Positions 10,486 to 47,020 of a stretch of 64,000 nt of DNA are shown here, one piece after another. The position numbers were made by a program, and so were the translations under genes. The DNA is from Amyloporia xantha (taxonomy: Eukaryota; Basidiomycota; Agaricomycetes; Polyporales; Adustoporiaceae): contig JAYKKR010000004.1 in the NCBI GenBank assembly GCA_036971615.1, positions 1,984,001 to 2,048,000 of the forward strand, in the 5' to 3' direction. The first letter of the stretch is position 1; each line of letters opens with the position of its first letter. A model generated the notes under the pieces. That model worked only from the letters and a program-made list of their open reading frames with translations, did not search any database and was not told the DNA's origin.

Positions 10486-10486
10486 A

Positions 10487-13400: not shown

Positions 13401-13874
13401 TCACTCTCCCCGTCCCCGTCGCTCACCTCCTGCGCCTTCTCCTTCCCCTTCCCCTTCCCCTTCGCCTTACCTTTCGCCTTCGCCTTACCTTTCTTCTTCC
13501 CCTTCGCCACAGGAACAACCTCCTCCACCTCCACCACATCGTCCTCGTCCTCGTCGATGACTGCGCCAACTTTCGACGGCCCAGCAATCGTCGCCTGCTT
13601 CACAGGCGGCGCAGCAGGCTTCGACTGCCGACGTGGCGGCGCATACCCCTGCGGCACCCCAGCACGCTGACCGCGCAGCGTGATCGGCCGACTCAGCTGC
13701 GTCACAGCCGGCACTGTCCACAGCGTTATCCATGCACACTCTCATAGGTATATGCTACTCACCTTCTCCTCCTCCTTCTCCTTCTCCAGAGCTGCTATCA
13801 ATCTCCTCCACCTCAGGAGGATCTGGTTGCTTTCGGCGGCGGCCTCCAGTTGTCGTCGCTTTCTTCGGAGGCAT
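10487..13874 (-). pseudogene. Gene A, copy I, truncated at its 3' end
   Basis: Exons 1-5 map at 13874-13763, 13713-13325, 13261-12626, 12570-12232 and 12175-11571. Exon 6 starts at 11159 and is cut at 10,486 by the array edge. The open frame runs on for about 43 codons into the flank and stops at 10,356, so exon 6 has a non-native C-terminus. Relative to the other copies it lacks one base near 13,203, two near 12,355 and one near 12,021, each breaking the frame. It lacks the C-terminal half (acidic and RGG-like regions), so it is either dead or makes a short fusion protein. Function unknown, as for the full copies. Confidence 0.8.
11203..11528. repeat. Palindrome cluster, gene A intron 5 (copy I): five 30-bp palindromes
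   Basis: Five cores of exactly 30 bp at 11203-11232, 11275-11304, 11354-11383, 11423-11452 and 11499-11528. Each is a 10-bp arm of type CGCGCTTCCG or CGCGCATCCG, a 10-bp loop and the complementary arm. They fill most of a 411-bp intron (11570-11160). The last has a private outer stem, AATATGTCC (11484-11492) pairing with GGACATATT (11534-11542). Confidence 0.93.
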
Positions 13875-14004
13875 GCTAAAGGTACGTCTCAGTCTCAGTG
13901 TGGAAGTCGAGGCGTATCGAACGACCAACGCATCCCAGCGCCCAGTCGATCGATACGATCACTCAACTCTCACAGTCACATGCATCGCCCGCACGTGCCT
14001 TCTT

Positions 14005-14397
14005 CGCGCATCCGCATGTCCGAACGGATGCGCGATATCGAGGGTATATTTGTGGTCTACACAAGTGCGCAGATCGCGCTTCCGTTCGCTCGAACGGAAG
14101 CGCGATCGACGAGGTAAATATATCCCCAAATGTATAGCCCCAAAGGGCAAAAAACGCGCTTCCGCCCACTCGTGCGGATGCGCGTTGTTTGCCCTTTGAC
14201 ACTACCCATATTTACCCTGTCGATCGCGCTTCCGTTCGATCGTGCGGATGCGCGTTCGACGAGGTATATATGTATAGTACCCTCGAGTGCCTCGAACGCG
14301 CATCCGCACGAGCAAACGGATGCGCGTTCGTGCATATACTTCACTTCTGTACATTCAGTACTACGTTCGCGCTTCAGCACGCTCTATCCGAAGCGCG
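14005..14397. repeat. Palindrome cluster, gene A leader (copy I): six 30-bp palindromes
   Basis: Cores at 14005-14034, 14075-14104, 14155-14184, 14225-14254, 14297-14326 and 14368-14397, between the gene A start codon (13,874) and the unit end (14,549). Spacing is fairly regular, about 70-80 bp centre to centre. The third has a perfect extra outer stem, CAAAGGGC at 14141-14148 with GCCCTTTG at 14191-14198. The cluster lies where the promoter or 5' UTR of gene A should be. Confidence 0.92.
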
Positions 14398-14476
14398 TTC
14401 TTTTCTCTCAACTCATATATTTATGGTATATTACCCTACTGTACAGGGTTTCGCTACGTAAATGTACCTCCCCCAT

Positions 14477-14549
14477 CCCTAATCGGACCTACCCAAACCC
14501 AGAAGGGAGGTAAGTGTACCCCAACCCAGTTACGAAAACCCTATATAAT
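14477..14549. repeat. E1 terminal motif, copy I
   Basis: The unit ends in a segment with TACCCCAACC, GTTACGAAAA and finally ACCCTATATAAT. The position of the end is fixed by copy 3, where the sequence leaves the repeat right after this motif. Here it is followed directly by the start of the next unit. Confidence 0.6.
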
Positions 14550-14828
14550 CATCCAGTCTTAGGTTCTGACATTGCTCGTGCTGGTTTAGAAACATCTCCG
14601 TCGTCTTAGCCAGACATATATATCTTGATGAGAGTGTTTTGCTGAGATATCAAGATCTTGGTAAATGGTACAAATTTATGTATCCAGAACATATGCACTT
14701 TGTCGCATACTAGCACATGAGGAGCTGCTTTTACTGCATCATGTCTCCTTTAAGGATCGTCCAGCAAGGCACCCAGTCGGTACAAATAGCCCTTGCACAA
14801 TGCATGCTATGGTTGGTGTGACTACAGC

Positions 14829-15085
14829 CGGGTTCCAATGTCATTCCAAATTCTGTCCTGTGTCTCTCCCGCTTCAGGCCCCACACCAGTGAATGAAAGT
14901 GTTGGCACCATGTAAGAATTGAACAAGAGGAACACATGCAAGAGCATGATGGAGGTGAGCATTGTCAGCACGTAGATCCTCCAGCATGGCGCAGACATAT
15001 TCTCACTACGAAAAGGTTAGACACTACTCTCAACATGGTGGGCATCACATACCACACCATCGGCCAATAGATCGTTTTCTGTCAG
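14829..15085. repeat. Diverged direct repeat, left copy, unit 1
   Basis: This block (with CCCGCTTCAGGCCCCACAC, GTGTTGG and ACCATGTAAGAA) recurs at 16,983-17,207 in the same orientation, clearly diverged in sequence and spacing. The two copies flank the minisatellite. They do not end in TG...CA and are too different for young LTRs. Confidence 0.75.
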
Positions 15086-15465
15086 CTCTCGACTGATAAA
15101 CTTGAGAGCAGCAGCCACAGCGTCGGAAGAATCAACGAACGCACAAAAAGATCACGGTCAATAGTGTGATCGTTGACGCTGGTGACAACAACGAGATGTA
15201 GAACCCGATGTTTTATCCAGAATTCTACAAAAAAAGGAAAGTACGCTTTGGCGGGCACATTCAGAATGTACCACGCAAACTGTGTGCTAACATAGATGTT
15301 GCTTTACCGACAGTTTTCAGTTGTCCTTGCAGAGAGTTGACAAGCAACTTACGGGACGATTTCAAGAGCACCCGAATCTGGATTAGTGGAGATGTGGTGG
15401 ACATTGAACTCGAGTATCACATGCATTGTCGGCATTCAGTTTCATGTGCTCGCGAAAGCGACTGT

Positions 15466-16190
15466 TGCGCGAATGTCATGGTGTGGCGAAGGCGACCATC
15501 GCGCGAAGGCGACCGTTGCGCGAAGACGATCGTTGCGCGAAGGCGATGGTGTGGCGAAGGCGATCGTTGCGCGAAGGCGATCATCGTGCGAAGGCGATCG
15601 TTGCGCGAAGGCGATCATCGTGCGAAGGCGATGGTGTGGCGAAGGCGATCGTTGCGCGAAGGCGGTCATTGCGCGAAGGCGATCGTTGCGCGAATGTCAT
15701 AGTATTGCGAAGGCGACCATCGCACTAAGGTGATGGTGTGGCGAAGGCGATCCTTGCGTGAAGGCGATGGCGTGGCGAAGGCGATCGTTGCGCGAAGGCG
15801 ATCGTTGCGCGAAGGCGATGGTGTGGCGAAGGCGGTCATTGCGCGAAGGCGATGGTGTGGCGAAGGCGGTCATTGCGCGAAGGCGATCGTTGCGCGAAGG
15901 CGATGGTGTGGCGAAGGCGGTCATTGCGCGAAGGCGATGGTGTGGCGAAGGCGGTCATTGCGCGAAGGCGATCGTTGCGCGAAGGCGATGGTGTGGCGAA
16001 GGCGGTCATTGCGCGAAGGCGATCGTTGCGCGAAGGCGATCATCGTGCGAAGGCGATGGTGTGGCGAAGGCGATCATCGTGCGAAGGCGATGGTGTGGCG
16101 AAGGCGATCGTTGCGCGAAGGCGATGATGTGGCGGAGGTGATGGTGTGGCGAATGCGACCATCGTGTGAATGTCATGGTGTGGCGAAGGT
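15466..16190 (+). repeat. 17-bp minisatellite, unit 1
   Basis: About 40 tandem units of 17 bp with consensus GCGAAGGCGATCGTTGC and variants (GCGAAGGCGATGGTGTG, GCGAAGGCGGTCATTGC, GCGAAGGCGATCATCGT). Looser units continue to about 16,960. Three interspersed copies of a non-tandem block containing GATTAGTGGAGATGT and GTGGACATTGAACTC start near 15,381, 16,206 and 16,612. The unit has no stop codon in any plus-strand frame, so long plus-strand reading frames (up to 329 codons) arise; I do not call them genes. Confidence 0.92.
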
Positions 16191-16982
16191 GACTCTCCTA
16201 ATCTGGATTAGTGGAGATGTAGTGGACATTGAACTCAAGTATTTCCGAGAGCTTCACCCTTGGTGGATCTGTGTACAAATGAATGAGGGAATACGTGCGC
16301 GAGCACCACAGAGCTTGGCATTGTCGGCATTTAGTTTCATGTGCTCGCGAAAGCGACCGTTGTGCGAATGGTGTGGCGAATGCGACCGTTGCGCGAAGGC
16401 GACTGTTGCGCGAATGTCATGGTGTGGTGAAGGCGACCATCACCCGAATGTCATAGTATCACGAATGCGACCATTGCGCGAAGGCGATCGTTGCGCGAAT
16501 GTCATAGTATCGCGAATGCCACTGTGCCACCATTGCGCGAATGTCACGGTGGGGCGAATGCAACCATTGCGCGAATGTCATAGTATTGCGAATGCGACTC
16601 TCCTAATCTGGATTAGTGGAGATGTAGTGGACATTGAACTCGAGTATCACATGCATTGTCGGCATTCAGTTTCATGTGCTCGCGAAAGCGACCGTTGTGC
16701 GAATGTCATCGTGTCGTGAATTGTGTGAATGTCATAGTATCGCGAATGCGACCATTGCGCGAATGCGACCGTTGCGCGAATGTCATGGTGTGGTGAAGGT
16801 GACTGTTGCGCGAGTTGCATAGTATTGCCAACGCAACCGTTGCGCAAATGTCATGGTGTGGTGAAGGCGACTGTTGCGCGAAAGTGACCATTGCGCAACT
16901 TCCATAGCATCGCGAATGCGACTGTTGCGCGAGTTGCATAGCATCGTGAAAGCGAAGTGGTTTCATGGGGTCGCAAAAGCAT

Positions 16983-17207
16983 CGGGTTCCGATGTAATCC
17001 TTTTCAATATTCTTCTGCCTCTTTCGGAATTCTGTCTTGTGGTTCTCCCGCTTCAGGCCCCACACGAATGAATGTGTTGGTACCATGTAAGAAAGTCGGC
17101 ATTCAGATCTTTCAGCATGGCACAGATATATGCTCGCTACCAAAGAGTTAGAGACTACCCTTCAATCACATACTACACTATCGGCCAATGAGTTGTTTTC
17201 TGTTCAC
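16983..17207. repeat. Diverged direct repeat, right copy, unit 1
   Basis: Partner of 14829-15085; shared pieces include CCGCTTCAGGCCCCACAC and CGGCCAAT followed by GTTTTCTGT. Confidence 0.75.
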
Positions 17208-17228
17208 AATGGCTGTGGTTTCAAGCAG

Positions 17229-17425
17229 GTGTGATTGCACAAACAATGCGGAATCGGGATCGGTGGCAGTTTAATATAAGTGCAATTGCAAGCACGAGGC
17301 GGAAGCGATAGCCAAAACGATGCGGAATACAGGTGTGATTGCAAGAACGATGCGGCAGCGATTTCAAAAACGATGTGGTTAGGTTGTGGTGTAATACAGG
17401 TGTGATTGCCAGAACGTTGCAGAGG
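17229..17425. repeat. Imperfect repeat of about 25 bp, unit 1
   Basis: Several degenerate copies of a segment like AGGTGTGATTGCAAGAACG followed by ATGCGG, just downstream of gene B. The same block occurs at about 33,499-33,694 in unit 2. Confidence 0.65.
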
Positions 17426-17664
17426 TTATTGCATGCACGATTGCCCTTCTGCAGGAATACATGAAAACACCCTGGCGCTTGTGACGCAGCCAACATGATG
17501 TCTTATTCTCTTTAAAATCTCTGTTCGTGCTAAACTACTTGACTTAAATTGATATCAAAAATAAACTAAACCTGTAAACTACATAGCATCTGCAATAGGC
17601 CTGGTGTAAGCCACCGTGGGACGCATCCGTTTCTTGGGCTGTGACAAAGGAATATCAAAAGGAT

Positions 17665-20600
17665 CTACATCTGCATCATCTTCATCATCACTGGGGACCA
17701 TTGCACGCCTCTTGCCTCGTGCGGTGGCACTGAGACCTGTCCTGGACCTTGGGTTTGATGAAGATGGCCTAGCATCGTCAAGGAGGATGATGGGCTGAGA
17801 AATGGAACCCCCGTGATGTTACTTGGCCTTCTGATGAGCTGCCCATCCTCCACCAACCTGTCTGCCATCCACTGCCCTCCGATGGCTTTGACCGCATCAT
17901 AAGGACCGTATGGAGCAGAGTTGAAGAGGGTGAGCAGCCTTTGGTAGTACCTGATGAGCTCCTCGTCCTTGTGGAATTTCCAGTCCTGGCCGAAGATGGG
18001 CTTGATGATTTTTGTCGAGGTGGCACAGGCGATACCCATGCGAACGAGATTGAATGCGGTCAAACCTTTGGCGTTGTGCTTGGCAGTCCATTGGGGACCA
18101 AGTGCGTTTGATTTGCTCTTGGCGACTGATTTGCGAAGGGGTGACTGTGGGTCCCACAAAGCGAGGATGAAGACCGTCATCATGGGGATGAAGGGATCTT
18201 GACGTGTGTTGCCCTTGCGACCCATGTTTGACAACCAGGGAGCGTGTCTGACGGCCTCTGTGAGGACATTTGCCGAATGGGTGTTGGGTAGGACACACTT
18301 GGAGTCCTTGGTCTCGAAGAAAACGTTGGGGATGAAATGGGAAAAGACGATGGCGAGGATGAGAGCGAGATGGTGGATTTGGTTTCCAAAGTCGAAGCGG
18401 TCGAAGACGTAGTGATAAGTCTTGGTGACGATATGCTCGCGGTCGCTGTCCAAGGTACAATTGTCGATGGTGAACTCGGAGGGGGGGACTTGGCGAGTCA
18501 AGACGGAGGAGAGTTGAGAGAGGGGGATGGCAGATGCGGACCAGTCGGCACGGGTGCTGAGCTGAAGGGCACGAGAGGTGATGGCTGCTGCGAGTTGTTC
18601 CTGGTTCTCCTCATGGTTCTGTACGGCAGGGCGGATGAGTCTTGGAATGGTGTGTGCGTCTGGAGCGTCGACCATGATCCAAGAATCGAACTGGGGTTTC
18701 CTGGATGTTCTTCCGCCTTTCTTCTTGCCCTTGGGTGACTCATAGTGCCAAGGTACGAAGGTGATGTCGTGGGCTTGGATGACGAGAAGGAAGAAGTCGA
18801 CCATCCAGATGTGAAGGTGCTTGTCGGACATGTTAGGCGGGGCCAAGTTGAGCATACCGGTGATGGCGAAGCGGAGGACGGCGGGAGCTGTGCCCTTGGA
18901 AATGAGGGGTGCGGCGATGGTGTGTGAACTGCCTGGTTTGCCCATCTCGAAGAGGAGGCGTGCGAGAGCCCTGTGAGGCATGCAACCATCTGTGGGATTC
19001 GGGAGGCCTCGAGCCATGGAGGTGATGTCTGCATTGACCGCTCTGATCAAGGCGGCGTAAGCGATACCTTTGTTAGACATGCTGAGGGGGTTCTTCATCT
19101 TGAGCCACGCTGCGAGCTGCTTGAGCCTGTTGTTGTGGAAGTGGCGTGCCTCTGGCGACATGTTCTCTATGTCGATGGAGGAGACCTTCTTGACGTCGAG
19201 GCGAACGGCGTGGGCGACGTACTGCTTAATGTCCTCTATGATGACGGTTAAAGCGATGTCGGCCATCATGATGGCCTGACGATGTGCTGAGTTGCCCTCG
19301 TACTTGATGTACTTGATGGGGATGGGCTTGTCCTTCATGAGGGAGAAGCGAAAGTTGGCCATGTACGCCTGTGGAGAGCAAAGAGAAATATGTGTCAGTG
19401 TGTGTGTGTGTGGGATGAAGCATGTATAGAGAGGGACCGTGGACGCGCATCGGCCCGAGCGAACGGAAGCGCGAAAACGGACGCCAGGGGCGACCGTGAT
19501 GGACGTCCATGCACGATAGGGGCCGTTTGCGCGCATCGGCCCGAGCGAACGGAAGCGCGAAAACACGCCATAATTGTACGGCGTGCGAGGCAGGGTCGGT
19601 GTCGCAGTGTGCAAAAAACGCGCTTTTGCACGGTCGTGCAAAAGCGCCAACGGGACGCTATTGTGGTGATGGTTGACAATAAGGAAAAAAACACTCACCG
19701 CTGCGACGGATGCTCCCCAGGTTAACATGATGGCACGTGTGGAAGCCGTGGCAGGCAGTCCATCAGGGCCGTATGTGGGCCACTTGGCGGGGGCGATGCT
19801 GAGGGGTTTCTTCTGATTGAGATGGAAGCGGATGTCAGGGTGGAAACAGGGGAGGCCGTGCTCGAGGATGCCGCGATCGATGAAGAGAGGGCGCATCAAC
19901 TTTGTGGCCAAGACCTGGGCGTTGCCGGTACATGCGAAGGCGACCAGGCGCTCAAAGATGGAAATCATCTCGACGTCCGTGGGGGAGATGGTGTTACCCT
20001 TTGCGATATCGGGAGCGAGGGCCAAGTACAAACGCTCCAACAGAACACATATGGCATATGTGGTCCATATGTAGAGGGCGGGAAGGACTGTTGTGGACCC
20101 AAAGGTTCATACATAAGTAATAATGCGAGATACCGCTGTGTGGACTCAGGACTGACCTCCGGTTTGAAGACGACGAGATGGCTTCGGAGTCTTTGGAAAA
20201 TGTTCTGAGAGATGGTGGCGTTCACGAGGCGCATGACGATGTCGCGATAGAACGTTCTACATAAAGGGAGGTCAGGTTGGGAACACGTTAATGTTAAAGG
20301 AAACCACGATAGTACTGACAATCCCGAGCGCTTGATGGGAGGAATGTTGTCCATGAGAATGGTGACGACGTTCTCGATGCGCAGCGATCTGGGAACGGTG
20401 CCGGACTCGATCTTTTGACGGAATCGCTCGTGGGGGAGGCCGAGATCGTGTTGATGCAAGAGGCGAGTGTGAATAGATTTGCTGCGAGTGTCGGAGGCCC
20501 ATCCGCCTGTGCAGGCCTGAGTGAGACCACCTGTACAGACCTCCTGGAGACCTGCGGTGGGCCTGATGCGATGGGAGACCTCGTTGTAGATCTGGCAGGC

Positions 20601-23381
20601 GATGGGGAGAACGATAGGGCCTTGTCCTCCGTTTTCTCGAACGTAGTCGTCCATCTGCTCGAGCAATTCGGCGTCTTGGAGCTCTTCGATGACTTCTTCC
20701 TCGTCACGACCGTCTTCGTCCATATAGTCCTCGTCATCGTTGTCGTTGTCGTTGTTGAGGACCCCGGTGCGGGGCGGAGGAGGACGTCTGTGGCGGAAAC
20801 CTGGAGGGGAGGAGGGACATCCTTGCGAATTTCCTTCTCGAGGTCAATGATGAAGGGGATGTAGAGGGGAAAGAGGCGATTCGCCTGAACGTTCCCGTAG
20901 ATCTTCAAGAGGGCTTGGGGGTAGCCATGTAGCTTCAAGCCCTTGTCTTCCGTTCCTCGGTTGCGGAAAAAGTCCTCTATCTCTTGACTCGCCTTCTTGA
21001 GTTCCTCGGCTTGGTCGTGGATATTGTCCGGGAAAGGGTTGTTGTCATCATCGTCGTCGTCGCCGCCGTCGTGTTGGTTGTCATGGTCTGGGGGGTCGCT
21101 GGAGCCAAAGTCGCTTTCCTCCATGAACCAGTTGGGATTGTCCTCTGATGGGTTGCCTTGGGGGTCGTGGTCCTCCTCTTGGTCCTCGTCGCCCTCGTCC
21201 ACTGTGTTGCGTCGTGGAGGTCGCTGGTGATACTGACTTTGTTGAGACTGGGACTTGCGTGCGCGATCTGCCTGGCGGATGTATTGCAAGCCTTCGCCGT
21301 TGTCGTTGAGGTCGTTGAACATGTCGTGGATGTTGCGGAGGTCGAGGAGAGCGGCGCACTCTGGTTTTGTGAGGTCGACGGGTCTGTGGATGCGAGGGAT
21401 GCGACGGCCATCTGGGGTATAGATGGGGATCTCGTTTCCTTTCTCGTCTTCGAGAGGGATAGGAGTGGAGATCGAGACCGTCTTCGTCGTCTTCGTGGGT
21501 GTAGCTCGGGAAGACTCGCGGGTATTGAGCGTAGATGTCCTCCACCGGGATGGGTTGGAAGGAGGTGACCTGTCTGATCCTGTTATTGTGAAAGGGAGGG
21601 AAGGAGAGATGAGTTGGTGTGTACATTATTGTATATATTGAGAGCATCGAGGAATGTACATACTGAATGTGTGTGGCGATGGCGATGTCGACGGACTTGA
21701 GACCGAGCCAGTTGCGTTCTTCGTCCCACTGCTTCATCTCTTGGACTGCTGCGCCTTTTACGCCGACGGGTTGGTTCTGGCCGTACCTGCAGGTGATGAA
21801 GATGGGGGAGTGTTTGGTGATGAAACCGGCTTTGCGCCAGCGACCGGGGGTGTTCTGTACCCAAGGTTCCCAGGAGGAGCTGAGGAGGTCGTGAAGACGG
21901 CGTGCATGGGGAAGGGTGAGTCGAATGTTGCGATGCTCGCTGCGAAATGAATATCATGAGTGAGCGGATATAGAGACGAGGATGGTGAGTGAAAGACGCA
22001 ATAACGCGCATCGGCCCGAGCGAACGGAAGCGCGATATGAGCGTATATTTATATGCATGACGTGGACGACGACGGACACCAGTAACGCGCTTCCGCGGAA
22101 GCTAACGGAAGCGCGATCTGGACACCTATGTGGTGTGTGTGTGTGTGTGCACGACGTTGATATGACCAACACGGGCCGATAACGCACTTCCGCACGGCGA
22201 TGCGGAAGCGCGATATATACGCTACATATATATATACGCACGTGATCTATGTGACGCTAGAAGCGTGCGGAACGCGCTTCCGCACGGCCGTGCAGAAGTG
22301 GGAATGGGGCACAGTAACGTAAAGAAAAGAAAAGAAAAGAAAAGACTTACAAGACGTTGGTCACGTCCGAAAGGGACCACGCGTTGAGGTCCTTGTCCAG
22401 ACCGTACCGATGCTGCGGATGGACAGTGATGCCTTGGAATCCCATCTCGGCCAGCTGCGTCGAAAACCAGAGGAGAAAGATCTTGACGTTGTGGGCGCTG
22501 AGGCGGGAGTCTTTGCGCGTCGGGGCGACAAAGGTGACGCTCTCCTTGGAGCTGTCCAAGAAGTCGTTCGGCGCAAAGGCGACCCATAGCTCCTCGTCTC
22601 GACAGCGGCCGACGTACATCATGCGCCCGTCAGGGTTGAAACCCATGTCCCCGTGCTTGGCGCGCCATTCGCGATAGGGCTGCTTGAGGTCCAACTCGAG
22701 AGTGAAATGACGATCGGAGAGTACGGTGGGGAGACAGGCGTCGAGACCCATACCGGAGGGAACGCACCGCATGTAGTCGATGAAGTGGTTGTCTGCGGTC
22801 CACTTGAGAGACTTGTCGAGGGTGGGGATGATGAATTCGTCGTCGACGATGATGGCGGTGCGTTTCTTGAGGACGTTGACGGCATGCTCTGTGCTGCTCG
22901 CGGTGCGGGAGAGGGCTGCGTTGCGCAAGACGGACAGGGAGAGCTTCTGCTGATAGGTGCGATTCCACAAGTTCTCGTTGTTGGCGTCGTGGTTGTCGTC
23001 GAGGACGTCCTCGCGCAAGACGTGCTCGAGGACCTCGCTCTGGTCTATGTGGGTGTCTGCGGTGAGGCCATCTGGGAGGTCGTCCAAAAAGAACGGCTGG
23101 CGGCGCGCGGAGAGCACGTCGTCGAGACATGCAGAGCTGAAAGAAAACGAAGATATATTTAATAAGTTGATAGACGAGAGGATGAGGACGTACTTTGCGT
23201 ATTGCTGAAGGACTTGGTGGGGCAGGAGGTCCGGGGCTCTCGAGTCTTCGTCAACCTGTGCGCTGGAGGTTGAAAACGATAAGAATACGAAAGAAATGAG
23301 AGAAAAACGAGAACATACTGGGAACTGCGAGGGAGGAGGAGGAGGAGGCATGCGAGCTGAGGACGAGGTTGCGACGGACAT
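17665..23381 (-). CDS. Gene B, copy I: large acidic protein of unknown function (about 1,546 aa)
   Basis: Eight exons: 23381-23319, 23255-23194, 23136-22351, 21939-21664, 21579-20320, 20256-20157, 20087-19699 and 19368-17665. With the two-copy consensus all junctions are in phase and the coding length is about 4,641 nt. The N-terminus is MSVATSSSARMPPPPPP. Exon 3 is a compact globular-looking region (IIVDDEFIIPTLDKSLKW, DLKQPYREWRAKHGDMGFNP). Exon 5 has two strongly acidic stretches, with Asp runs around GGDDDDDDNNPFPDN and NNDNDNDDEDYMDEDGRDEE. The C-terminal 568 residues (exon 8) are rich in conserved hydrophobic and His/Trp positions and end in a basic tail. Exon 5 has an extra base near 21,460 and lacks one near 20,812; exon 7 lacks one near 20,084. 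It lies 960 bp downstream of gene A on the same strand. I recognise no domain; a role together with gene A is inferred only from constant linkage. Confidence 0.78.
19444..19648. repeat. Palindrome cluster, gene B intron 7 (copy I): three 30-bp palindromes
   Basis: Cores at 19444-19473, 19530-19559 and 19619-19648 inside the 330-bp intron 19698-19369. The first two have arms CGCGCATCGG/CGGAAGCGCG; the third is a diverged form with CGCTTTTGCACG pairing with CGTGCAAAAGCG. Confidence 0.9.
22005..22303. repeat. Palindrome cluster, gene B intron 3 (copy I): four 30-bp palindromes
   Basis: Cores at 22005-22034, 22086-22115, 22183-22212 and a decayed one at 22274-22303, in the 411-bp intron 22350-21940. 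The second has outer bases CCAG and CTGG that also pair. The intron additionally holds a GT run and an AAAAG run next to the donor. Confidence 0.9.
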
Positions 23382-24342
23382 GTTGGCTTAGAACAGAGTG
23401 GGAGCTGAGCTGACAGTACGAGACTCGAGAAGATGGGAGGAGGAGGAGGAGGAGGAGGAGGGGGTCAGTGACACGTCTGAATGAACTGGTAGACGAACCG
23501 GTATGGATCGGTCCAGGGTGGGACATTAATTAGTGTGTGGCAACCAGGGTTGGATGGGAGGGAGATCGGAGAAAATTAGTGTGGAGCGATCGAGGTAGGA
23601 TCGGCTATAGTGCTGAAACAGGGGAGAAATGTTAACCATTGAATTGATTGAACGGATAGTATGGGTACCTTGGGGATACTACATGATGATGCGTGTACGC
23701 TGTGAGTACAGTGCAGCTATAGGACGAGTATGAAGAGCGTGAACGGAGAATGAGCGGGCGGAATTGAGGACTTACTACGAAGATGATGATGATGATGATG
23801 ATGATGATTTGATCGAGTCGGACGAATCGGAAGCGAGAAGCCGAAGCCGGAGCGGAAGACGCGAAGGAATCTTGAGATAAAGTAATAAGCGAAAAGATGG
23901 AGAGTATATTGAGAAGATGATGGGGATGAAACAGGGGCGTACGCAGATCGGGCGCAGTATGGGATCGAACGGTATCGCTCGCGATGACATAAACATGAAT
24001 GCATTGCGCGTAGATAGCGACGGTAATACATGAGTACGATTATACGTCCGAGTGCGATATATCGACGGGGCGTAGCGAAGACGTACATGACGAGAGAGGA
24101 GAGAACGACGATACAATTACATGAGTATGATGGGTTGAACCATCTGCGAGGGAACATAGTTGTACAGGAAGAATCATGCATCATATGGGTTGAACCATAT
24201 GATGATGCGATAAAGACGAGAAATGTACGCAGCGTGGAGACACTCAGAGCTCATTGATCGTGTCGTCGTTCTCTTCGTGAGCAGGCAGAGAGGCTATGGT
24301 GAAGGATAAGGGGAGTCAGATCGCGCGTGCTGGAGGGTTCGG
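23382..24342. other. Spacer between gene A and gene B, unit 1
   Basis: About 960 bp that must hold the gene A 3' end and the gene B promoter. It contains a GGA run (23,437-23,460) and a GAT run (about 23,782-23,807). Frames up to 155 codons on the minus strand are low-complexity Ser/Tyr/Arg-rich and have no start context or introns I can defend. The same spacer lies at 39,643-40,601 in unit 2. Confidence 0.5.
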
Positions 24343-27300
24343 TTAGGTCTGAAGGAAGCGCTGCTCACCGAGGAAACTTCCGGACGGGCGAGCGGAGGTG
24401 TTGCCTCCACCGCGAACGCCACTGCCACTGCCACTGCCACCGCGAACACCACCGCGAACACCAATGGCAAGTCCACCGCGACGAGGACGAGGACGAGGAG
24501 GGCCCGAGGGTTCCATGGGGCGAAGAGAGGCTGCACGGCGGGGCTGCTCTCTACGTGGAAGAGGGGAGGCGGGGGGAGGCGTGGGGGACGACCTCTGGGA
24601 GAGGGTAGGGGGTCAAGGGGCGGGAGGGATCCTGAGTGAAAGGATGGTGGAAGAGGTTGGTGCGGCGGGGTGGAGGAAGAGGGTTGGCGGAGGAGGGGGT
24701 GAACATGTCAGGGAGCTGGCTGCCTTGCTCAGCGATGACCGAGGCCTGCGTGTTGTCTAAGGAGCGAAGGCAACAACATATTTGTCAGAAATATATAGGT
24801 ATATATACGAGACGGAGAAGGTGCCGATAACGCGCATCCGCCAGAGCGAACGGAAGCGCGTCAAACGGCTTAGTATGCACGAATAATATTCGATATGACG
24901 CGCTTCGGCCCGAGCGTACGGAAGCGCGTCACGCGGGGTACATGAAAATACTACCCCGTATGACGCGCTTCCGTTCGGTCGTGCGGATGCGCGTCGGACG
25001 AATATGTGTGTGCACACCACGCGTATATCGCGCTTCCGTTCGCTCGGGCGGAAGCGCGTCGTACGGTCCATATTGGAGTATAGTACCCCGTATGACGCGC
25101 TTCCGTACGCTCGTGCGGATGCGCGTTCGACGGAGTGTCTGAGCACACTCTCGAGGTGCGTGGATCGCGCTTCCGTTCGTCCGTGCGGATGCGCGTTCGA
25201 CGCACCAATACGATATATAAATATATGTCTCGTTCGCGCTTCCGTTCGCTCTGGCCGAAGCGCGAAACGAGACACACAGAGGCGAACATGTTTACTCACC
25301 GATGAAGTTGTCGTCCATCTCTTGGTCGTCGTCGTCAGGCTGACCGGGTGCGAACAGCACGTCACCCTGGATGTCCTGCTGCTCCTGGTGCGCAGACACG
25401 CCGGGCTCAGAGGTCGTCTTGCCCTTCCCCGTGTCGTCCCCCATCTCCGCATCCTCCTCATCGTCCTCCTCCTCCTCGTTGCGCTCAGGGGTCTCTCCAC
25501 GGCGCGGACGCTTCTTATCCGGAGAGGGTGTCGTCGCCTTTTTCGAATTCTTGGAGACGTTCGAGTTGCTGCGCTTCTTGCCCGCAGGCCCACTCTCCCC
25601 TGCCCATCTCCGCCTCCTTCGCCTTGCTCACCCGGGGCCTCCGGTTCATCATCCCCACCCTCCTCTGGCTCTTGCTCTGGCTCTGGCTCTTCCTCCTCTT
25701 CCTCATCGTCGTTCTGCTCCTGCGTCAGCTCCGGCTCACCAGCACCTTCAGGTGCAGCAGCGATCTCTGCCATGGCCTTCTTCTTGGCAGCCCGCCTCGC
25801 CCGTTTCTTCTCCTCCTCCTCCTGTTGCAGCGCCTGGATGTGGGACTCCTCGAGGTCCATCAGCTCCTTCAGGTCGGTCTCAGTAGGTACGTCCTGTGAA
25901 CACATATAAAAATAATAGGTCAGATGTCGGTATCCGTCTCTCTCGCACGCTCAAACGCACCCAAGGATATTCAAAGCGATCCGAGTATTGCGCATTGGGC
26001 AGCTGCAGCGAATTCGCGTCATACGACTTGAGCAGAACGGAGGCATCGAGCCGCTCCGTCCAGTTCTCGGTAACTTGACGCTCGCGATTGTGCGCCACGG
26101 TACTGACGATCGCCTGCGAACACATTATAATGATGAGTACGTCAAAGTTAAGTACGCGCGCGCGAGAGAGAGAGACACGATCGCTCACCTTGTGCATCTG
26201 GCGCATCGTGAACGCGACCAGTCCGTCCAGCGGACGCGTCGTTGGATCCTCGTCCACGTTATCCTGCGTGACCAGCCGAACCGACGGGAGGTTCGCGATC
26301 AGCGTGATGAGACGCTTCGCCTCCTCCAAGTCGTGGTCCGCCTGATCCGAGATCTCCAACGCCGAAAGGTCCTTGACGGTCTCAGCGGCCTTGCCCTTGC
26401 CCCGGCTCTTCCTGACTGGCTTCGCTGCTTTCGACGCCGACCCAGAAGCCTCCGCCTTCCGCTCATCTTTCGCTTTGGCCCCGGCCTTCGCCTGAGTCGT
26501 TCCACCGGACGCACGACTCGTGCTCTCCGCCATCGCCGTCCCTGCCGCCTTCTCCAACCTCTTCTTCTTCTCCTGATCCACCACGTCCATCTGTTTCTTG
26601 CGCTGCGGGTTGGCCTCCCGCGTTTCGGACTCGACCCACGTCGGATTCGACACCTCCTTCGTCTGCTTCGTGAGATCGCACTCATCCCACCACTCGAACT
26701 TGACCTCCGCAGACGAGTCCATACCCTCCGACATGATCTTGGCGATATCGTCCCGCAGATCCAGGACGACCGGAGGCGTCGAGTCGAACATGAACGCACG
26801 GAAGTGGCTCATCTCCAGAGCCGTCACCACCGCCATCGACGAGATGTCCCGCCGGAGGTTCTTGAGGCACGTCCAGCCCTTCCTGCCCGTCTTCGGGTCC
26901 TCCGCGAGCTCGCCCCTCCACGGCATGCCCGAGAACCACAACGCTCGCCACCCGAACAGACGCTCGACCGTCTTGTGGTCCTCCCGAGCGACGAACTCGT
27001 TCCGCGCATCTATCAACGCCGCCACGGTCTGCACGAGCGACCTCGGCGCCATCACCTTGTCGAAGTCGATGTACTTGAGGTACTCCTTCGCACTCTCCAC
27101 TTCTTCCGCCGACGGCTCCTTGACGCGCGTCTTCTTCCACCCACTCGACCAGAACATCGCGAACATGCCGGTCCCGAGCTCTTTCTTCGTGTTCAAACGG
27201 CTCCAAGTCGCCGACTCCGGCATCAGTCTCCAGTGCACGTCCAGGAACGCCGCGCCGTCTCGCGTGCTCCACACCAGCCTGGCCAGCCTGGCGCACGTCT

Positions 27301-30150
27301 TCTCCACCTGCCCCGGCATGATCCCCGGCCATTGCTCGATCGTGTTGAACACCGTCAGCCAGTGGTCGGCGATGAACTCGGTCGAGTTCGTCATCGACGT
27401 GCACAACACGAACGGTTCGATGAACCACGCGATCTGTAAAAGAACACCCGTCAGCATACCCATAGCGTCGTCAGATCGCGCTTCCGTTCGCGCTGGCCGA
27501 TGCGCGAAACGGAGGCCCCCAGGTACGTCGTCCGATAGACGTCGATATCGCGCATCCGCTCACGCGGGCGGATGCGCGTCATTCGACGTTCATACACACG
27601 CACGTGTGTCGTCACGCACTCGTATGACGCGCATCCGCCCGAGCGAGCGGATGCGCGATATACTGCACCTTGTGCGCATTCAATCGAGGTGCGTTTGACG
27701 CGCTTCCGTTCGACCGTGCTGAAGCGCGTCAGACGCACCTCTCGTCACGCATACACAAAAATATGTCCCGATATCGCGCATCCGTTCGCTCGGGCGGATG
27801 CGCGTTATCGGACATATTGGAACAGTATAGAAAAATGTTCACTCACCACAGACCATCCCGACGAGTACAGCTGCAGCTCGCTATCCAGCGACGCCAGATA
27901 CGCACGGGACAGGGCGGAGGAGGTATGAACAGGTCGTACTCGTACATCTCCGCAGGCAGCGGCGTGTACAGCATCTTGATCCGCGCTAGCACCACCTGCC
28001 GGAACGCCTTCTCCTCCTCGTTCGCCGCCGGGTTCCGCTGCCAATGCCCCTCCAGACTCTCCATCAGCTGCACGCTGATGTCCTCCAGCTGCTTCCGCGA
28101 CGCCTCCGTCGTCTTCCCCAGCTTCCAGTCCTCTGTCCGCACAGCAGCACGGAACGCACCGTCAGCAAGAACCATCACCGCGTCGTCCTGCCAAACCTCC
28201 CAATCAGGCGTACCACGCATCATCAGCATACGCTCCTCGTGGTACCCTATCCACGACAGTCGCTTGCTCAGTCGCGTCATCCTCGCATGCAGGTCCTCGT
28301 CCCGGTACTGCTTCTCCAGGTCCTCGAAGTCCTCCATCAACTTCCGCTGGAGCTTCGAGACATCCGCAACAGTCTTCATCTCAGAGTGCACCTCCTTCGA
28401 CCCCAGCAACCCCATGATGTCCGACGACTGCTGCCCCAGGAACACGAACAGCTGCAATATATATATTTTTCAGCACATGTCTCTCCATCGTAAGCACGCA
28501 TACTCACCCCGAAGTGCGTCTTGAACATCGTCGTCACCTTCTCGATCCGCAGGTACGGCGATTGCAGGAAATCACGCCCGTATCTCGTAAGAGACATCAG
28601 GAACTTCACCGCCCGCGGGTGCGCCCACAGCTTCGCGAAGTGATTCGCGTGCTTCCGACGCGATTCCCCCGTGCGCGACCGCACATCGTTCAGCTCCTTC
28701 GCGAGCCTCGCATCGAACTTCCCCGGGACGCGGTCCAGCTCCCGCAACGCACGCAGCGTCATCAGGAAATACTCGTCCTCCGTCTCGTAGAACCGATGCA
28801 TCTCTCGGTTCCGAGACAGATGCAACCCCATCTCCGTACTCAACTTCTCTGTAATGCGTATTAATAAAAACATCCAATAATAATAATTCAATCGCACACT
28901 CACCGTAGACGTACACCTCCGCCGACCACATCGCCTTCTCCTCCAGACGTGCCCGAGCCTTCTCGTACATCTCCACCAACTTCGTCAGCATATCGTTCTC
29001 CACCTCCGTCCGCGCCGTCTTCGCTCTCAGCAACTCCATCTCCGCCTCCGCCTTCACGTACGAGTCCAACAACCGCTTGCAGTACATCGCGTTTGCCTCC
29101 CTCCGGTGGTGCCCACCGATGATGTACACCTCCGCCGGCGCCAACGTACCGTCCTCCAGCTCCGCCCGCGCACTGGGATCAATCTTCAGCTCCGGTAGAA
29201 GGTGTCCGGCCCGGCGCTGCAGCTCCCGAGGCGTCAGCGTATCGTCCAGGAACTTCTCCGAGATCGCAATCTGGATCATATTCCCCGCTAGCAGCCCACC
29301 GTGCTCGACGTTCAACTCCGCCAGCAGCCGAGTCGCCTCCATCTTGTTGATCGGCCGATCATTCCACTGGTGCGGAACGAACACCATCCCCAACTCCTTC
29401 GCGAGGAAGTCCAGCAACGGCACCCGCACATGCCCGTACAGCGCCTCCGAAATCTTCGCCTCCAGCTTCGCCACCTCCTCCCCGCGTTCCTTCGAATCGT
29501 CCGTCAGCCCGATCGCAGTCGTCATCTTCCGCAACGCATTCTAGATCCCCGTACGATCGAACGTCAATATCACATCCAGCCCGATCATGTTAATCTTACG
29601 TACCTCCGATCTCTCCGCTTCCCTTTCCGCCTTCGTCTGCTCGTCTTCCTCCTCCGCGGCCTCCTCCCGTCCTCATCCTCACTCTCCCCGTCCCCGTCGC
29701 TCACCTCCTGCGCCTTCTCCTTCCCCTTCCCCTTCCCCTTCGCCTTACCTTTCGCCTTCGCCTTACCTTTCTTCTTCCCCTTCGCCACAGGAACAACCTC
29801 CTCCACCTCCACCACATCGTCCTCGTCCTCGTCGATGACTGCGCCAACTTTCGACGGCCCAGCAATCGTCGCCTGCTTCACAGGCGGCGCAGCAGGCTTC
29901 GACTGCCGACGTGGCGGCGCATACCCTGCGGCACCCCAGCACGCTGACCGCGCAGCGTGATCGGCCGACTCAGCTGCGTCACAGCCGGCACTGTCCACAG
30001 CGTTATCCATGCACACTCTCATAGGTATATGCTACTCACCTTCTCCTCCTCCTTCTCCTTCTCCAGAGCTGCTATCAATCTCCTCCACCTCAGGAGGATC
30101 TGGTTGCTTCGGCGGCGGCCTCCAGTTGTCGTCGCTTTCTTCGGAGGCAT
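24343..30150 (-). CDS. Gene A, copy II: large protein of unknown function (about 1,495 aa)
   Basis: Nine exons in this copy: 30150 to about 30039, then exons 2-5 down to 27847, exon 6 27433-26189, exon 7 26113-25961, exon 8 25893-25300 and exon 9 from 24756. Using the consensus of the three copies, every junction is in phase. In order the protein shows a short basic/acidic N-terminus (MPPKKATTTGGRRR), a KGKGKAKAKG lysine block followed by an acidic run, a region of about 800 residues rich in conserved aromatic and charged positions (for example WFIEPFVLCTSM, RLFGWRALWFSGMPW), a Lys/Ala/Ser linker, and a very acidic glutamate tract with nearby KKRPRR patches. The last exon can end in an RGG-like Gly/Arg tail, but the frame there depends on a G run (24,607) that varies between copies, so the 3' end is uncertain. 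The charge pattern suggests a nuclear, nucleic-acid-linked protein (inference). No family recognised. This copy has single-base frame breaks near 27,917, 29,667, 29,925 and 30,107. Confidence 0.75.
24831..25264. repeat. Palindrome cluster, gene A intron 8 (copy II): seven 30-bp palindromes
   Basis: Cores at 24831-24860, 24899-24928, 24964-24993, 25029-25058, 25096-25125, 25166-25195 and 25235-25264, spaced 65-70 bp, inside the 543-bp intron 25299-24757. Private outer stems are clear for the last two: GGTGCGT (25155-25161) with ACGCACC (25200-25206), and GTCTCGTT (25227-25234) with AACGAGAC (25266-25273). Confidence 0.93.
27477..27804. repeat. Palindrome cluster, gene A intron 5 (copy II)
   Basis: Second copy of the five-palindrome cluster at 11203-11528, in intron 27846-27434. 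Two single-base insertions lie between palindromes (near 27,663 and 27,689); the cores themselves are unchanged. Confidence 0.92.
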
Positions 30151-30280
30151 GCTAAAGGTACGTCTCAGTCTCAGTGTGGAAGTCGAGGCGTATCGAACGA
30201 CCAACGCATCCCAGCGCCCAGTCGATCGATACGATCACTCAACTCTCACAGTCACATGCATCGCCCGCACGTGCCTTCTT

Positions 30281-30673
30281 CGCGCATCCGCATGTCCGAA
30301 CGGATGCGCGATATCGAGGGTATATTTGTGGTCTACACAAGTGCGCAGATCGCGCTTCCGTTCGCTCGAACGGAAGCGCGATCGACGGGGTAAATATATC
30401 CCCAAATGTATAGCCCCAAAGGGCAAAAAACGCGCTTCCGCCCACTCGTGCGGATGCGCGTTGTTTGCCCTTTGACACTACCCATATTTACCCTGTCGAT
30501 CGCGCTTCCGTTCGATCGTGCGGATGCGCGTTCGACGAGGTATATATGTATAGTACCCTCGAGTGCCTCGAACGCGCATCCGCACGAGCAAACGGATGCG
30601 CGTTCGTGCATATACTTCACTTCTGTACATTCAGTACTACGTTCGCGCTTCAGCACGCTCTATCCGAAGCGCG
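30281..30673. repeat. Palindrome cluster, gene A leader (copy II)
   Basis: Second copy of the six-palindrome leader cluster, upstream of the gene A start at 30,150. It is identical to 14005-14397 apart from a base change just outside a core (GACGGGG for GACGAGG). Confidence 0.92.
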
Positions 30674-30752
30674 TTCTTTTCTCTCAACTCATATATTTAT
30701 GGTATATTACCCTACTGTACAGGGTTTCGCTACGTAAATGTACCTCCCCCAT

Positions 30753-30824
30753 CCTAATCGGACCTACCCAAACCCAGAAGGGAGGTAAGTGTACCCCAAC
30801 CCAGTTACGAAAACCCTATATAAT
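30753..30824. repeat. E1 terminal motif, copy II
   Basis: Same end motif as at 14,549, at the internal junction between full units 1 and 2. The next bases (CATCCAGTC) match those after 14,549, confirming a clean head-to-tail joint. Confidence 0.6.
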
Positions 30825-31103
30825 CATCCAGTCTTAGGTTCTGACATTGCTCGTGCTGGTTTAGAAACATCTCCGTCGTCTTAGCCAGACATATATATCT
30901 TGATGAGAGTGTTTTGCTGAGATATCAAGATCTTGGTAAATGGTACAAATTTATGTATCCAGAACATATGCACTTTGTCGCATACTAGCACATGAGGAGC
31001 TGCTTTTACTGCATCATGTCTCCTTTAAGGATCGTCCAGCAAGGCACCCAGTCGGTACAAATAGCCCTTGCACAATGCATGCTATGGTTGGTGTGACTAC
31101 AGC

Positions 31104-31360
31104 CGGGTTCCAATGTCATTCCAAATTCTGTCCTGTGTCTCTCCCGCTTCAGGCCCCACACCAGTGAATGAAAGTGTTGGCACCATGTAAGAATTGAACA
31201 AGAGGAACACATGCAAGAGCATGATGGAGGTGAGCATTGTCAGCACGTAGATCCTCCAGCATGGCGCAGACATATTCTCACTACGAAAAGGTTAGACACT
31301 ACTCTCAACATGGTGGGCATCACATACCACACCATCGGCCAATAGATCGTTTTCTGTCAG
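31104..31360. repeat. Diverged direct repeat, left copy, unit 2
   Basis: Unit 2 counterpart of 14829-15085. Confidence 0.75.
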
Positions 31361-31740
31361 CTCTCGACTGATAAACTTGAGAGCAGCAGCCACAGCGTCG
31401 GAAGAATCAACGAACGCACAAAAAGATCACGGTCAATAGTGTGATCGTTGACGCTGGTGACAACAACGAGATGTAGAACCCGATGTTTTATCCAGAATTC
31501 TACAAAAAAAGGAAAGTACGCTTTGGCGGGCACATTCAGAATGTACCACGCAAACTGTGTGCTAACATAGATGTTGCTTTACCGACAGTTTTCAGTTGTC
31601 CTTGCAGAGAGTTGACAAGCAACTTACGGGACGATTTCAAGAGCACCCGAATCTGGATTAGTGGAGATGTGGTGGACATTGAACTCGAGTATCACATGCA
31701 TTGTCGGCATTCAGTTTCATGTGCTCGCGAAAGCGACTGT

Positions 31741-32463
31741 TGCGCGAATGTCATGGTGTGGCGAAGGCGACCATCGCGCGGGAAGGCGACCGTTGCGCGA
31801 AGACGATCGTTGCGCGAAGGCGATGGTGTGGCGAAGGCGATCGTTGCGCGAAGGCGATCATCGTGCGAAGGCGATCGTTGCGCGAAGGCGATCATCGTCT
31901 GCGAAGGCGATGGTGTGGCGAAGGCGATCGTTGCGCGAAGGCGGTCATTGCGCGAAGGCGATCGTTGCGCGAATGTCATAGTATTGCGGCGACCATCGCA
32001 CTAAGGTGATGGTGTGGCGAAGGCGATCCTTGCGTGAAGGCGATGGCGTGGCGAAGGCGATCGTTGCGCCGGCGATCGTTGCGCGAAGGCGATGGTGTGG
32101 CGAAGGCGGTCATTGCGCCGAAGGCGATGGTGTGGCGAAGGCGGTCATTGCGCGAAGGCGATCGTTGCGCGAAGGCGATGGTGTGGCGAAAGGCGGTCAT
32201 TGCGCGAAGGCGATGGTGTGGCGAAGGCGGTCATTGCGCGGGCGATCGTTGCGCGAAGGCGATGGTGTGGCGAAGGCGGTCATTGCGCGAAGGCGATCGT
32301 TGCGCAAGGCGATCATCGTGCGAAGGCGATGGTGTGGCGAAGGCGATCATCGTGCGAAGGCGATGGTGTGGCGAAGGCGATCGTTGCGCGAAGGCGATGA
32401 TGTGGCGGAGGTGATGGTGTGGCGAATGCGACCATCGTGTGAATGTCATGGTGTGGCGAAGGT
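31741..32463 (+). repeat. 17-bp minisatellite, unit 2
   Basis: Copy of 15466-16190 with nearly the same length and the same order of variant units, but with many 1-3 bp insertions and deletions inside individual units. Looser units continue to about 33,225. Confidence 0.92.
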
Positions 32464-33251
32464 GACTCTCCTAATCTGGATTAGTGGAGATGTAGTGGAC
32501 ATTGAACTCAAGTATTTCCGAGAGCTTCACCCTTGGTGGATCTGTGTACAAATGAATGAGGGAATACGTGCGCGAGCACCACAGAGCTTGGCATTGTCGG
32601 CATTTAGTTTCATGTGCTCGCAAAGCGACCGTTGTGCGAATGGTGTGGCGAATGCGACCGTTGCGCGAAGGCGACTGTTGCGCGAATGTCATGGTGTGGT
32701 GAAGGCGACCATCACCCGAATGTCATAGTATCACGAATGCGACCATTGCGCGAAGGCGATCGTTGCGCGAATGTCATAGTATCGCGAATGCCACTGTGCC
32801 ACCATTGCGCGAATGTCACGGTGGGGCGAATGCAACCATTGCGCGAATGTCATAGTATTGCGAATGCGACTCTCCTAATCTGGATTAGTGGAGATGTAGT
32901 GGACATTGAACTCGAGTATCACATGCATTGTCGGCATTCAGTTTCATGTGCTCGCGAAAGCGACCGTTGTGCGAATGTCATCGTGTCGTGAATTGTGTGA
33001 ATGTCATAGTATCGCGAATGCGACCATTGCGCGAATGCGACCGTTGCGCGAATGTCATGGTGTGGTGAAGGTGACTGTTGCGCGAGTTGCATAGTATTGC
33101 CAACGCAACCGTTGCGCAAATGTCATGGTGTGGTGAAGGCGACTGTTACGAAAGTGACCATTGCGCAACTTCCATAGCATCGCGAATGCGACTGTTGCGC
33201 GAGTTGCATAGCATCGTGAAAGCGAAGTGGTTTCATGGGGTCGCAAAAGCA

Positions 33252-33477
33252 TCGGGTTCCGATGTAATCCTTTTCAATATTCTTCTGCCTCTTTCGGAAT
33301 TCTGTCTTGTGGTTCTCCCGCTTCAGGCCCCACACGAATGAATGTGTTGGTACCATGTAAGAAAGTCGGCATTCAGATCTTTCAGCATGGCACAGATATA
33401 TGCTCGCTACCAAAGAGTTAGAGACTACCCTTCAATCACATACTACACTATCGGCCAATGAGTTGTTTTCTGTTCAC
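33252..33477. repeat. Diverged direct repeat, right copy, unit 2
   Basis: Unit 2 counterpart of 16983-17207. Confidence 0.75.
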
Positions 33478-33498
33478 AATGGCTGTGGTTTCAAGCAG

Positions 33499-33694
33499 GT
33501 GTGATTGCACAAACAATGCGGAATCGGGATCGGTGGCAGTTTAATATAAGTGCAATTGCAAGCACGAGGCGGAAGCGATAGCCAAAACGATGCGGAATAC
33601 AGGTGTGATTGCAAGAACGATGCGGCAGCGATTTCAAAACGATGTGGTTAGGTTGTGGTGTAATACAGGTGTGATTGCCAGAACGTTGCAGAGG
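33499..33694. repeat. Imperfect repeat of about 25 bp, unit 2
   Basis: Unit 2 counterpart of 17229-17425, one base shorter in an A run. Confidence 0.65.
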
Positions 33695-33933
33695 TTATTG
33701 CATGCACGATTGCCCTTCTGCAGGAATACATGAAAACACCCTGGCGCTTGTGACGCAGCCAACATGATGTCTTATTCTCTTTAAAATCTCTGTTCGTGCT
33801 AAACTACTTGACTTAAATTGATATCAAAAATAAACTAAACCTGTAAACTACATAGCATCTGCAATAGGCCTGGTGTAAGCCACCGTGGGACGCATCCGTT
33901 TCTTGGGCTGTGACAAAGGAATATCAAAAGGAT

Positions 33934-46419: not shown

Positions 46420-46549
46420 GCTAAAGGTACGTCTCAGTCTCAGTGTGGAAGTCGAGGCGTATCGAACGACCAACGCATCCCAGCGCCCAGTCGATCGATA
46501 CGATCACTCAACTCTCACAGTCACATGCATCGCCCGCACGTGCCTTCTT

Positions 46550-46941
46550 CGCGCATCCGCATGTCCGAATGGATGCGCGATATCGAGGGTATTTTTGTGG
46601 TCTACACAAGTGCGCAGAACGCGCTTCCGTTTGCTCGAACGGAAGCGCGATCGACGGGGTAAATATATCCCCAAATGTATAGCCCCAAAGGGAAAAAACG
46701 CGCTTCCGCCCGCTCGTGCGGATGCGCGTTGTTTGCCCTTTGACACTACCCATATTTACCCTGTCGATCGCGCTTCCGTTCGATCGTGCGGATGCGCGTT
46801 CGACGAGGTATATATGTATAGTACCCTCGAGTGCCTCGAACGCGCATCCGCACGAGCAAACGGATGCGCGTTCGTGCATATACTTCACTTCTGTACATTC
46901 AGTACTACGTTCGCGCTTCAGCACGCTCTATCCGAAGCGCG
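46550..46941. repeat. Palindrome cluster, gene A leader (copy III)
   Basis: Third copy of the leader cluster, upstream of the gene A start at 46,419. It carries several base substitutions not seen in the other two: a changed base in the first palindrome, and AACGCG for ATCGCG plus TTTGCTCG for TTCGCTCG at the second. It is thus the most diverged copy of this cluster and lies next to the outer edge of the array. Confidence 0.9.
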
Positions 46942-47020
46942 TTCTTTTCTCTCAACTCATATATTTATGGTATATTACCCTACTGTACAGGGTTTCGCTA
47001 CGTAAATGTACCTCCCCCAT

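Follow-up and report, generated by a model that had tools for sequence, protein, structure and literature searches.

Telomerase, a small number of retroelements and recombination are the known means by which chromosome ends are maintained. HeT-A, TART and TAHRE are telomeric retrotransposons of Drosophila in which the coding strand is the RNA that is copied and the genes read toward the centromere, and terminons such as Athena and Coprina are endonuclease-less Penelope-like elements with junctions at telomere repeats. We analysed a stretch of 64,000 nucleotides from the fungus Amyloporia xantha (contig JAYKKR010000004.1, positions 1,984,001 to 2,048,000; hereafter the window), in which a preliminary description had noted an undescribed element carrying two long genes, A and B, at 14550..30824. 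We found that copies of this element start at one fixed nucleotide, are dispersed through the genome and almost always point toward contig ends. It is probably a mobile element which attaches to chromosome ends and is copied outward from a fixed template terminus.

Like HeT-A, TART and TAHRE, the element forms head-to-tail stacks at ends, has a fixed inner and a variably truncated outer end, and attaches to ends without telomere repeats. Unlike in those retrotransposons, its genes read toward the telomere and contain introns, its host keeps a TTAGG telomere, there is no A/T tail at the fixed end and the exons scanned gave no reverse transcriptase (RT) or Gag match. With the terminons it shares telomeric stacks mixed with telomere repeats, large size, extra genes and the keeping of introns, whereas here no RT match was found in 16.27 kb, the terminus is ATTATA(TA)GGG and the junctions do not lie at telomere repeats.

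The array in the window consists of two complete units and one partial copy, head to tail on the minus strand. Element positions (el) were numbered from el:1 at window 47092 along the minus strand, i.e. in gene orientation, in which the array runs from 47092 to 30825, then from 30824 to 14550 and then from 14549 to 10486. It rests on a truncated piece of a sister family (fam2).

30825..47092, minus strand: main-family element, unit 2 (el:1 at 47092, truncation point el:16268 at 30825)
14550..30824, minus strand: main-family element, unit 1 (el:1 at 30824; truncation point at 14550, the same as in unit 2)
10486..14549, minus strand: third copy, far side truncated inside gene A, from sequence comparison with the units
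47093..48993, minus strand: truncated fam2 element start, with its own start ATTATAGGGACTTTTTCTAAAT... at 48993 and its own palindromes
47053..47092, minus strand: conserved terminus of about 40 nt, ATTATATAGGGTTTTCGTAACTGGGTTGGGG..., also at 30785-30824 and 14510-14549, from the junction comparison

The coordinates 14550..30824 proved correct to the base, and the two near-identical units reported earlier were recovered: window 10486-30824 and 26763-47092 are 99.58% identical over 20,372 columns, with 9 substitutions and 61 indel columns between units 1 and 2. What had been called a tail fragment is instead the head of an element (the leader and first 4.06 kb, truncated in gene A), and the repeat block is longer than first stated, with the fam2 piece adjoining the array. 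A constant non-coding end at 14550 and 30825 and an element length of about 16.27 kb had also been proposed, and neither can be kept. Both window units end at el:16268, and the copies on contigs C23 and C59 (the latter at 87% identity) run on beyond this point. Because these two copies continue, the alignments identify el:16268 as a truncation and not a true end, joined through 3 nt to the start that follows and duplicated later, and the 16.27 kb unit as less than the full element. No second constant end was seen among the copies mapped; the one end which was constant between copies was the element start.

Genome matches beginning at el:1 were found in at least 39 places, 3 of them in the window. 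All 30 junctions inspected start with ATTATATAGGG. Across the initial 17 nt, 27 of them match exactly, those of L047 and L055 have one mismatch each and that of L057 is one T short. A TTAGG repeat tract was present at the element start in 0 of the 30. We compared 31 flanks all against all: two pairs have an identical junction on an identical flank (window 30824/14549, and L048/L059, which are 90% alike), the flanks of L046 and L056 have 48 bp at 85% in common and are joined at different points, a few other pairs have 22-38 bp in common, and the remaining flanks are without similarity. Since the copies begin at one nucleotide on mostly unrelated flanks, these comparisons support a dispersed and mobile element and not a pair of housekeeping genes. 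Single-copy housekeeping genes were ruled out by the number of starts, and simple tandem duplication by the mostly unrelated flanks. The earlier suggestion of a mobile element is thus borne out, also by the A-B order kept in two divergent families and by purifying selection (both below). A shared end was seen at the start and not at the far side, which is variable. A cut-and-paste (TIR) transposon would have two constant ends with inverted repeats and a target-site duplication; no inverted repeat of ≥ 200 bp was found in the window, although no search was aimed at short terminal repeats or target-site duplications.

The copies are strongly oriented. In 35 of the 36 listed starts outside the window, the variable side lies toward the nearer contig end and the start toward the interior (binomial P = 1e−9, with copies treated as independent). 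As copies on one end are non-independent, we also counted each contig end once, which gave 22 of 23 (P = 6e−6). In the copies mapped, genes A and B run outward from the fixed start in the direction of the contig end. The genome has TTAGG as its telomere repeat (forward matches, 186; reverse matches, 190; matches in the reversed control, 0), which among the matches listed (C1, C5, C6, C7 and C9) lies at contig ends; TTAGGG telomeres were searched for in the genome and not found. The TTAGG repeat was also seen at L041 1-180 and at the end of L031. Truncated element ends adjoin TTAGG repeats, a Penelope-like retroelement or another copy's start. On C55, the sequence as read passes at the contig end directly from el:11891 into (TTAGG)n; on C9, by mapped coordinates, a copy of el 1-599 stops where (TTAGG)n begins; and on C11, two TTAGG units come after el:3489, with the 3′ end of an inward-reading RT element beyond them. 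Position, orientation and capping together mark this as a chromosome-end element.

The retroelement on C11 carries an inward-reading RT gene (L041 183-2314) and is joined at TTAGG repeats. Its matches to Drt3a (E = 2.6e−4) and Drt2 (E = 0.0011) are weak and far under the cut-offs, and it matched no Pfam family at E ≤ 0.001 and no PDB chain; from its motifs, we take it to be Penelope-like. Used as a query it gave 13 matches, its own locus included, at 96–100% identity over the full query and with no stops, plus one more at 77%. These lie mostly on contig ends which also carry the main element, in the opposite reading direction, and one is on C22. The Penelope-like element is cut at different points by the start of the main element. 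No hammerhead ribozyme, a motif of terminons and other endonuclease-less Penelope-like elements, was among 26 Rfam matches at E ≤ 10 in window 30000-47400, all of which were below gathering scores.

Element starts were found on truncated older copies, on the Penelope-like retroelement and on a sister family, and stacks in which a start sits on a truncation occur on C11, C17, C12 and C23 and in the window. Microhomology was scored as the bases common to the start (ATTAT...) and to the expected continuation of the flank, known from related sequence; the junction of fam2 on the Penelope-like element in C10 was left out, as the alignment ends 8 nt short of it. With relatives ≥ 90% alike, 9 of 9 independent junctions share bases (2, 3, 3, 3, 1, 2, 2, 5 and 2), and their sum of 23 was never reached in 400,000 draws of random el positions (P ≤ 2.5e−6). 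With relatives 77–85% alike, 3 of 4 junctions do so, and in total 12 of the 13 scorable junctions share 1–5 nt. Two extra cases, scored from overlapping match coordinates alone, agree (C12 el796, 2 nt; C23 at about el13368, 3 nt). The shared nucleotides at each junction were:

Relatives ≥ 90% alike: fam2 to el in the window, 2; el16268 to el, 3
Relatives ≥ 90% alike: Penelope-like element to el on C34, 3, and on C11, 3
Relatives ≥ 90% alike: el1593 to el, 1; el566 to el, 2; el194 to el, 2
Relatives ≥ 90% alike: common junction of C12 and C19, 5; C12:4108515, 2
Relatives 77–85% alike: fam2 to fam3, 2; C9, 1; C1, 3 (past two unaligned bases); C23 outer, 0

Gene A precedes gene B in the element and both lie on the minus strand.

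40500..46419, minus strand: gene A, unit 2, intron-rich; last exon and stop placed by eye
33934..39642, minus strand: gene B, unit 2, intron-rich; small indels private to this unit disrupt the frame, first exons (start 39642) placed by eye
24234..30153, minus strand: gene A, unit 1; ends approximate, carried over from unit 2
17665..23377, minus strand: gene B, unit 1; last exon 17665-19368 is one open frame, start approximate

The gene models remain rough and do not cover the whole genes, and parts of B close to single-base differences probably have wrong splice sites. The model of A (copy C17) has 1,239 aa, with the frame open over all 1,239 codons and the last exon outside the model, and that of B (unit 1) has 1,294 aa, with the first exons outside it; the size of about 1,500 aa first estimated for both proteins is therefore roughly right. 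The genes are indeed intron-rich and on one strand, with 7 introns predicted for A in C17 and 6 for B in unit 1. Many exon length differences between copies are of 3, 6, 9 or 12 bases and many are of a single base, mostly in homopolymers. Unit 2 has at least 8 indels in or near the genes which are unmatched in any other copy covering them, again mostly single bases in homopolymers (e.g. at el 1100, 3356, 9065, 10979, 11112, 11631 and 12338), and some of these may be assembly errors. One-base indels of unit 2 (e.g. at window 45993, 38028, 36114 and 35462) break frames which are intact in other copies.

We calculated pN/pS for each copy against unit 2, using selected exon stretches that total 3,093 bases in A and 2,272 in B. 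Values were 0.00–0.45 for A (8 copies with synonymous differences) and 0.00–0.28 for B (8 copies, with just 1–8 synonymous changes each), and neither gene had stops by substitution. These ratios show purifying selection on A and B across copies. Both genes were described as outside known families, and no exon that we scanned reached a Pfam cut-off. NCBIfam and PHROGs gave no convincing match to the selected exons; one A2 exon (A2 being the sister-family relative of A) weakly matched an NCBIfam lipoprotein family (E = 0.0016) and phrog_95 (E = 0.0097), which we attribute to chance similarity or coiled coil. In PDB, one A exon and two B alignments used as sequence queries gave no useful match (one was at E = 0.064), nor did GTDB and viral contigs with a B alignment as sole query. 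Gag and RT domains had no match at curated cut-offs in the exons scanned within the 16.27 kb, and Rfam none at gathering scores. The earlier failure to find a transposase-type enzyme motif is matched by our scan of these exons, in which no polymerase, nuclease, recombinase or helicase family reached a cut-off.

The non-coding parts of the element contain arrays of a 28 bp palindrome, GCGCWTCCG-N10-CGGAWGCGC or a close variant in the main family, and of a 17 bp satellite.

30282..30672, minus strand: leader palindrome array, unit 1, 28 bp sites about every 70 bp
27478..27803, minus strand: palindrome array in a gene A intron, unit 1, from a pattern scan
24832..25263, minus strand: palindrome array in the last intron of gene A, unit 1, from a pattern scan
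22006..22282, minus strand: palindrome array in a gene B intron, unit 1, from a pattern scan
19445..19558, minus strand: two palindromes in a gene B intron, unit 1, from a pattern scan
15366..16955, unstranded: arrays of a 17 bp satellite, 3′ non-coding part of unit 1 (unit 2 counterpart 31717-33225)

None of the 44 half-sites of unit 1 falls in the listed exons, though exons make up about 69% of el 1-13200 (the exon list being partly hand-placed). Elsewhere we counted 2 occurrences of this half-site pattern across the 16 kb of C10 and 5 across 25.5 kb of window flank. We found 21 complete 28 bp sites. A stricter palindrome pattern occurs at 200 places in the genome and at 0 in the control, and among the matches listed (50, on C1 to C12) all sites lie within mapped element copies. 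Fam2 has a palindrome of its own, GGAATATCG-N8-CGATATTCC, with 41 sites on C10, C34, C35, C36, C57 and C59 and 0 in the control, and a third family (fam3) has half-sites GGAATAGCG / CGCTATTCC, of which there are 24 in 2,191 bases and 0 in the fam2 body. Because each family has its own array, the pattern suggests recognition by a protein of the same element. Our guess is that the product of gene A binds the palindromes of its own family and so marks or tethers the element. Gene A carries a GGHHRREA motif, which we presume to be ParB-like, a single short motif without a Pfam match. The arrangement is like that of the VANC proteins of VANDAL transposons and of ParB-parS, in which family-specific short repeated non-coding sites accompany a fast-evolving protein coded alongside; in our element binding is putative and the ParB likeness of gene A is confined to that motif. 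The 17 bp satellite was seen at window 31726-32462 and 15451-16189, and the matching interval on C23 (2558867-2561243) is about 2 kb longer.

Relatives of gene B at 32–37% identity were found on C10, C17, C15, C57, C36 and C59. On C10 the gene A relative, A2, lies upstream of B2, in the same order as in the main family. A and A2 are 26% identical (E = 4e−4, z = 6.8 against shuffles); one exon of A2 aligns convincingly, and three others gave z of 0.4, 1.4 and 3.2, the last in low-complexity acidic sequence. The fam2 start was seen on different flanks at window 48993 and C10:131806. Because copies stack, we searched for the start of a third family, and the fam3 start was then found inside gene B2. 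The starts of the three families have the terminus of about 40 nt in common, with the motif ATTATA(TA)GGG. The leaders of fam2 and fam3 contain a gene-like stretch (MATISEEEY...; window 47669-48133 and L063 176-643, 76% alike), perhaps a third gene of these families. Internal, diverged relatives of gene A (38–63% identity) were also seen at C58 873671-903085, possibly an old internal stack.

In the mechanism which we favour, a chromosome end that has lost its telomere repeats would pair by a few nucleotides of its 3′ end with the 3′ terminus of the element template, which would be copied outward from this fixed terminus until copying stops, or until the end erodes later. Such copying would explain why the inner end is fixed, why the outer end is ragged and why a few nucleotides pair at the start. 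The chromosome-primed strand would be the A/B coding strand from el:1, and since the chromosome 3′ end continues as this strand, the template would be the opposite one, with its 3′ end at el:1. The template may be an antisense RNA used with an RT, either the element's own or the Penelope-like enzyme in trans, or it may be a linear DNA. We consider the RNA somewhat likelier, because an unspliced antisense strand keeps introns and because open Penelope-like RTs lie in the same stacks. A and B are inferred to be agents of movement, and B might serve the end reaction.

Several observations weigh against this mechanism. The sole exception to the orientation, an old 84% copy on C42, faces the farther end, and the window array itself is internal to contig C34, 411 kb from the nearer contig end and with ordinary genes on both sides; it may reflect a rearrangement or old chromosome-end fusion, end capture at an internal break, or misassembly. 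The C23 outer junction (L046) has no shared base, and the junction of C12 and C19 has 5 against its closest relative and 0 against the C11 copy of the retroelement, although with this zero and a further one included the result holds at P ≤ 3.3e−6. Microhomology at the junctions is also compatible with the end joining of a linear fragment. The terminus of the Penelope-like element is a different one (telomere repeats), and nothing links its enzyme to copying of the main element. No polymerase, nuclease, HUH or recombinase family was above cut-off in the A and B exons scanned, and AlphaFold models were too poor to use (pLDDT 33 for part of a B2-type protein and 37 for an A exon), leaving the palindrome-binding role of A with an empty Pfam result and useless structure predictions.

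Part of this evidence would also fit a giant Penelope-like terminon with an RT on the opposite strand beyond el:16268, in which A and B would be extra genes. Two copies do extend past el:16268, a retroelement templated by antisense RNA would be expected to show a fixed inner end and a truncated outer one, and the Penelope-like RTs in the same stacks read in the opposite direction. However, a search with one RT query gave no match (E ≤ 1e−5) from C23:2562792 to the contig end at 2575634, and the known Penelope-like element is a separate one, which attaches at TTAGG and is cut at varying points by the element start, so we regard this explanation as rather unlikely. We would give a similarly low rating to a DNA route, in which a deprotected chromosome end would receive or copy a linear extrachromosomal form whose 5′ end is defined, through microhomology-mediated break repair or 5′-end transfer by a protein such as B. 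It would account for the single defined 5′ end with a terminus common to three families, the 1–5 nt of microhomology, the kept introns and the failure of the 16.27 kb to show any RT match in its exons, but nuclease, HUH, polymerase and recombinase families stayed below cut-off in the exons scanned and extrachromosomal DNA was not observed.

An ordinary transposon which inserts near telomeres and loses its outer parts by terminal deletion and telomere healing would likewise be mobile and dispersed with an exact 5′ end, and truncation and capping by telomere repeats clearly occur. That 35 of 36 listed starts share one orientation, that starts lie directly on truncated copies and that no second constant end was seen (with the limit on terminal repeats and target-site duplications given above) make it very improbable. 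Still more improbable, in our judgement, is a Y′-like subtelomeric repeat spread solely by recombination between chromosome ends. The units are tandem, subterminal and near-identical, and the one truncation junction of the window units and the one flank of L048/L059 indicate that some copies spread by duplication, but the flanks joined at that one nucleotide are mostly unrelated, which is not an outcome of homologous recombination. Yeast Y′ elements and telomere-linked helicase genes resemble the element as large tandem subterminal repeats with long genes, and differ from its exact start on mostly unrelated flanks and from the lack of a helicase match in the exons scanned; on these two grounds a Y′ element was rejected. 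A Helitron, which would have a Rep/helicase protein and ends of 5′ TC and 3′ CTRR, was also rejected, with the start being ATTATATAGGG and not 5′ TC and with no Rep/helicase match in the exons scanned.

It should also be noted that OPT transporter and SKN1/KRE6 genes lie to the left of the window array, and that the right flank has a 19 bp tandem repeat (CACCTAGTTAACTGAGTCA) at window 50267-50395.

Beyond outward copying from a fixed terminus, we tentatively put forward, as a possibility that we consider less likely than not, an RT-less class of elements whose own two proteins add the element to unprotected ends, the chromosome 3′ end capturing the fixed 5′ terminus by a few nucleotides, with palindromic binding sites private to each family and arrayed in introns and other non-coding sequence, and with families that compete and stack. 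A two-gene element with proteins outside known families and no polymerase found so far, if it does repeatedly cap eroded chromosome ends, would represent a further route of end maintenance, and its one defined terminus, short junction pairing and family-specific sites would make it a testable system. The sister families also show putative recognition sites that evolve separately around a common terminus.

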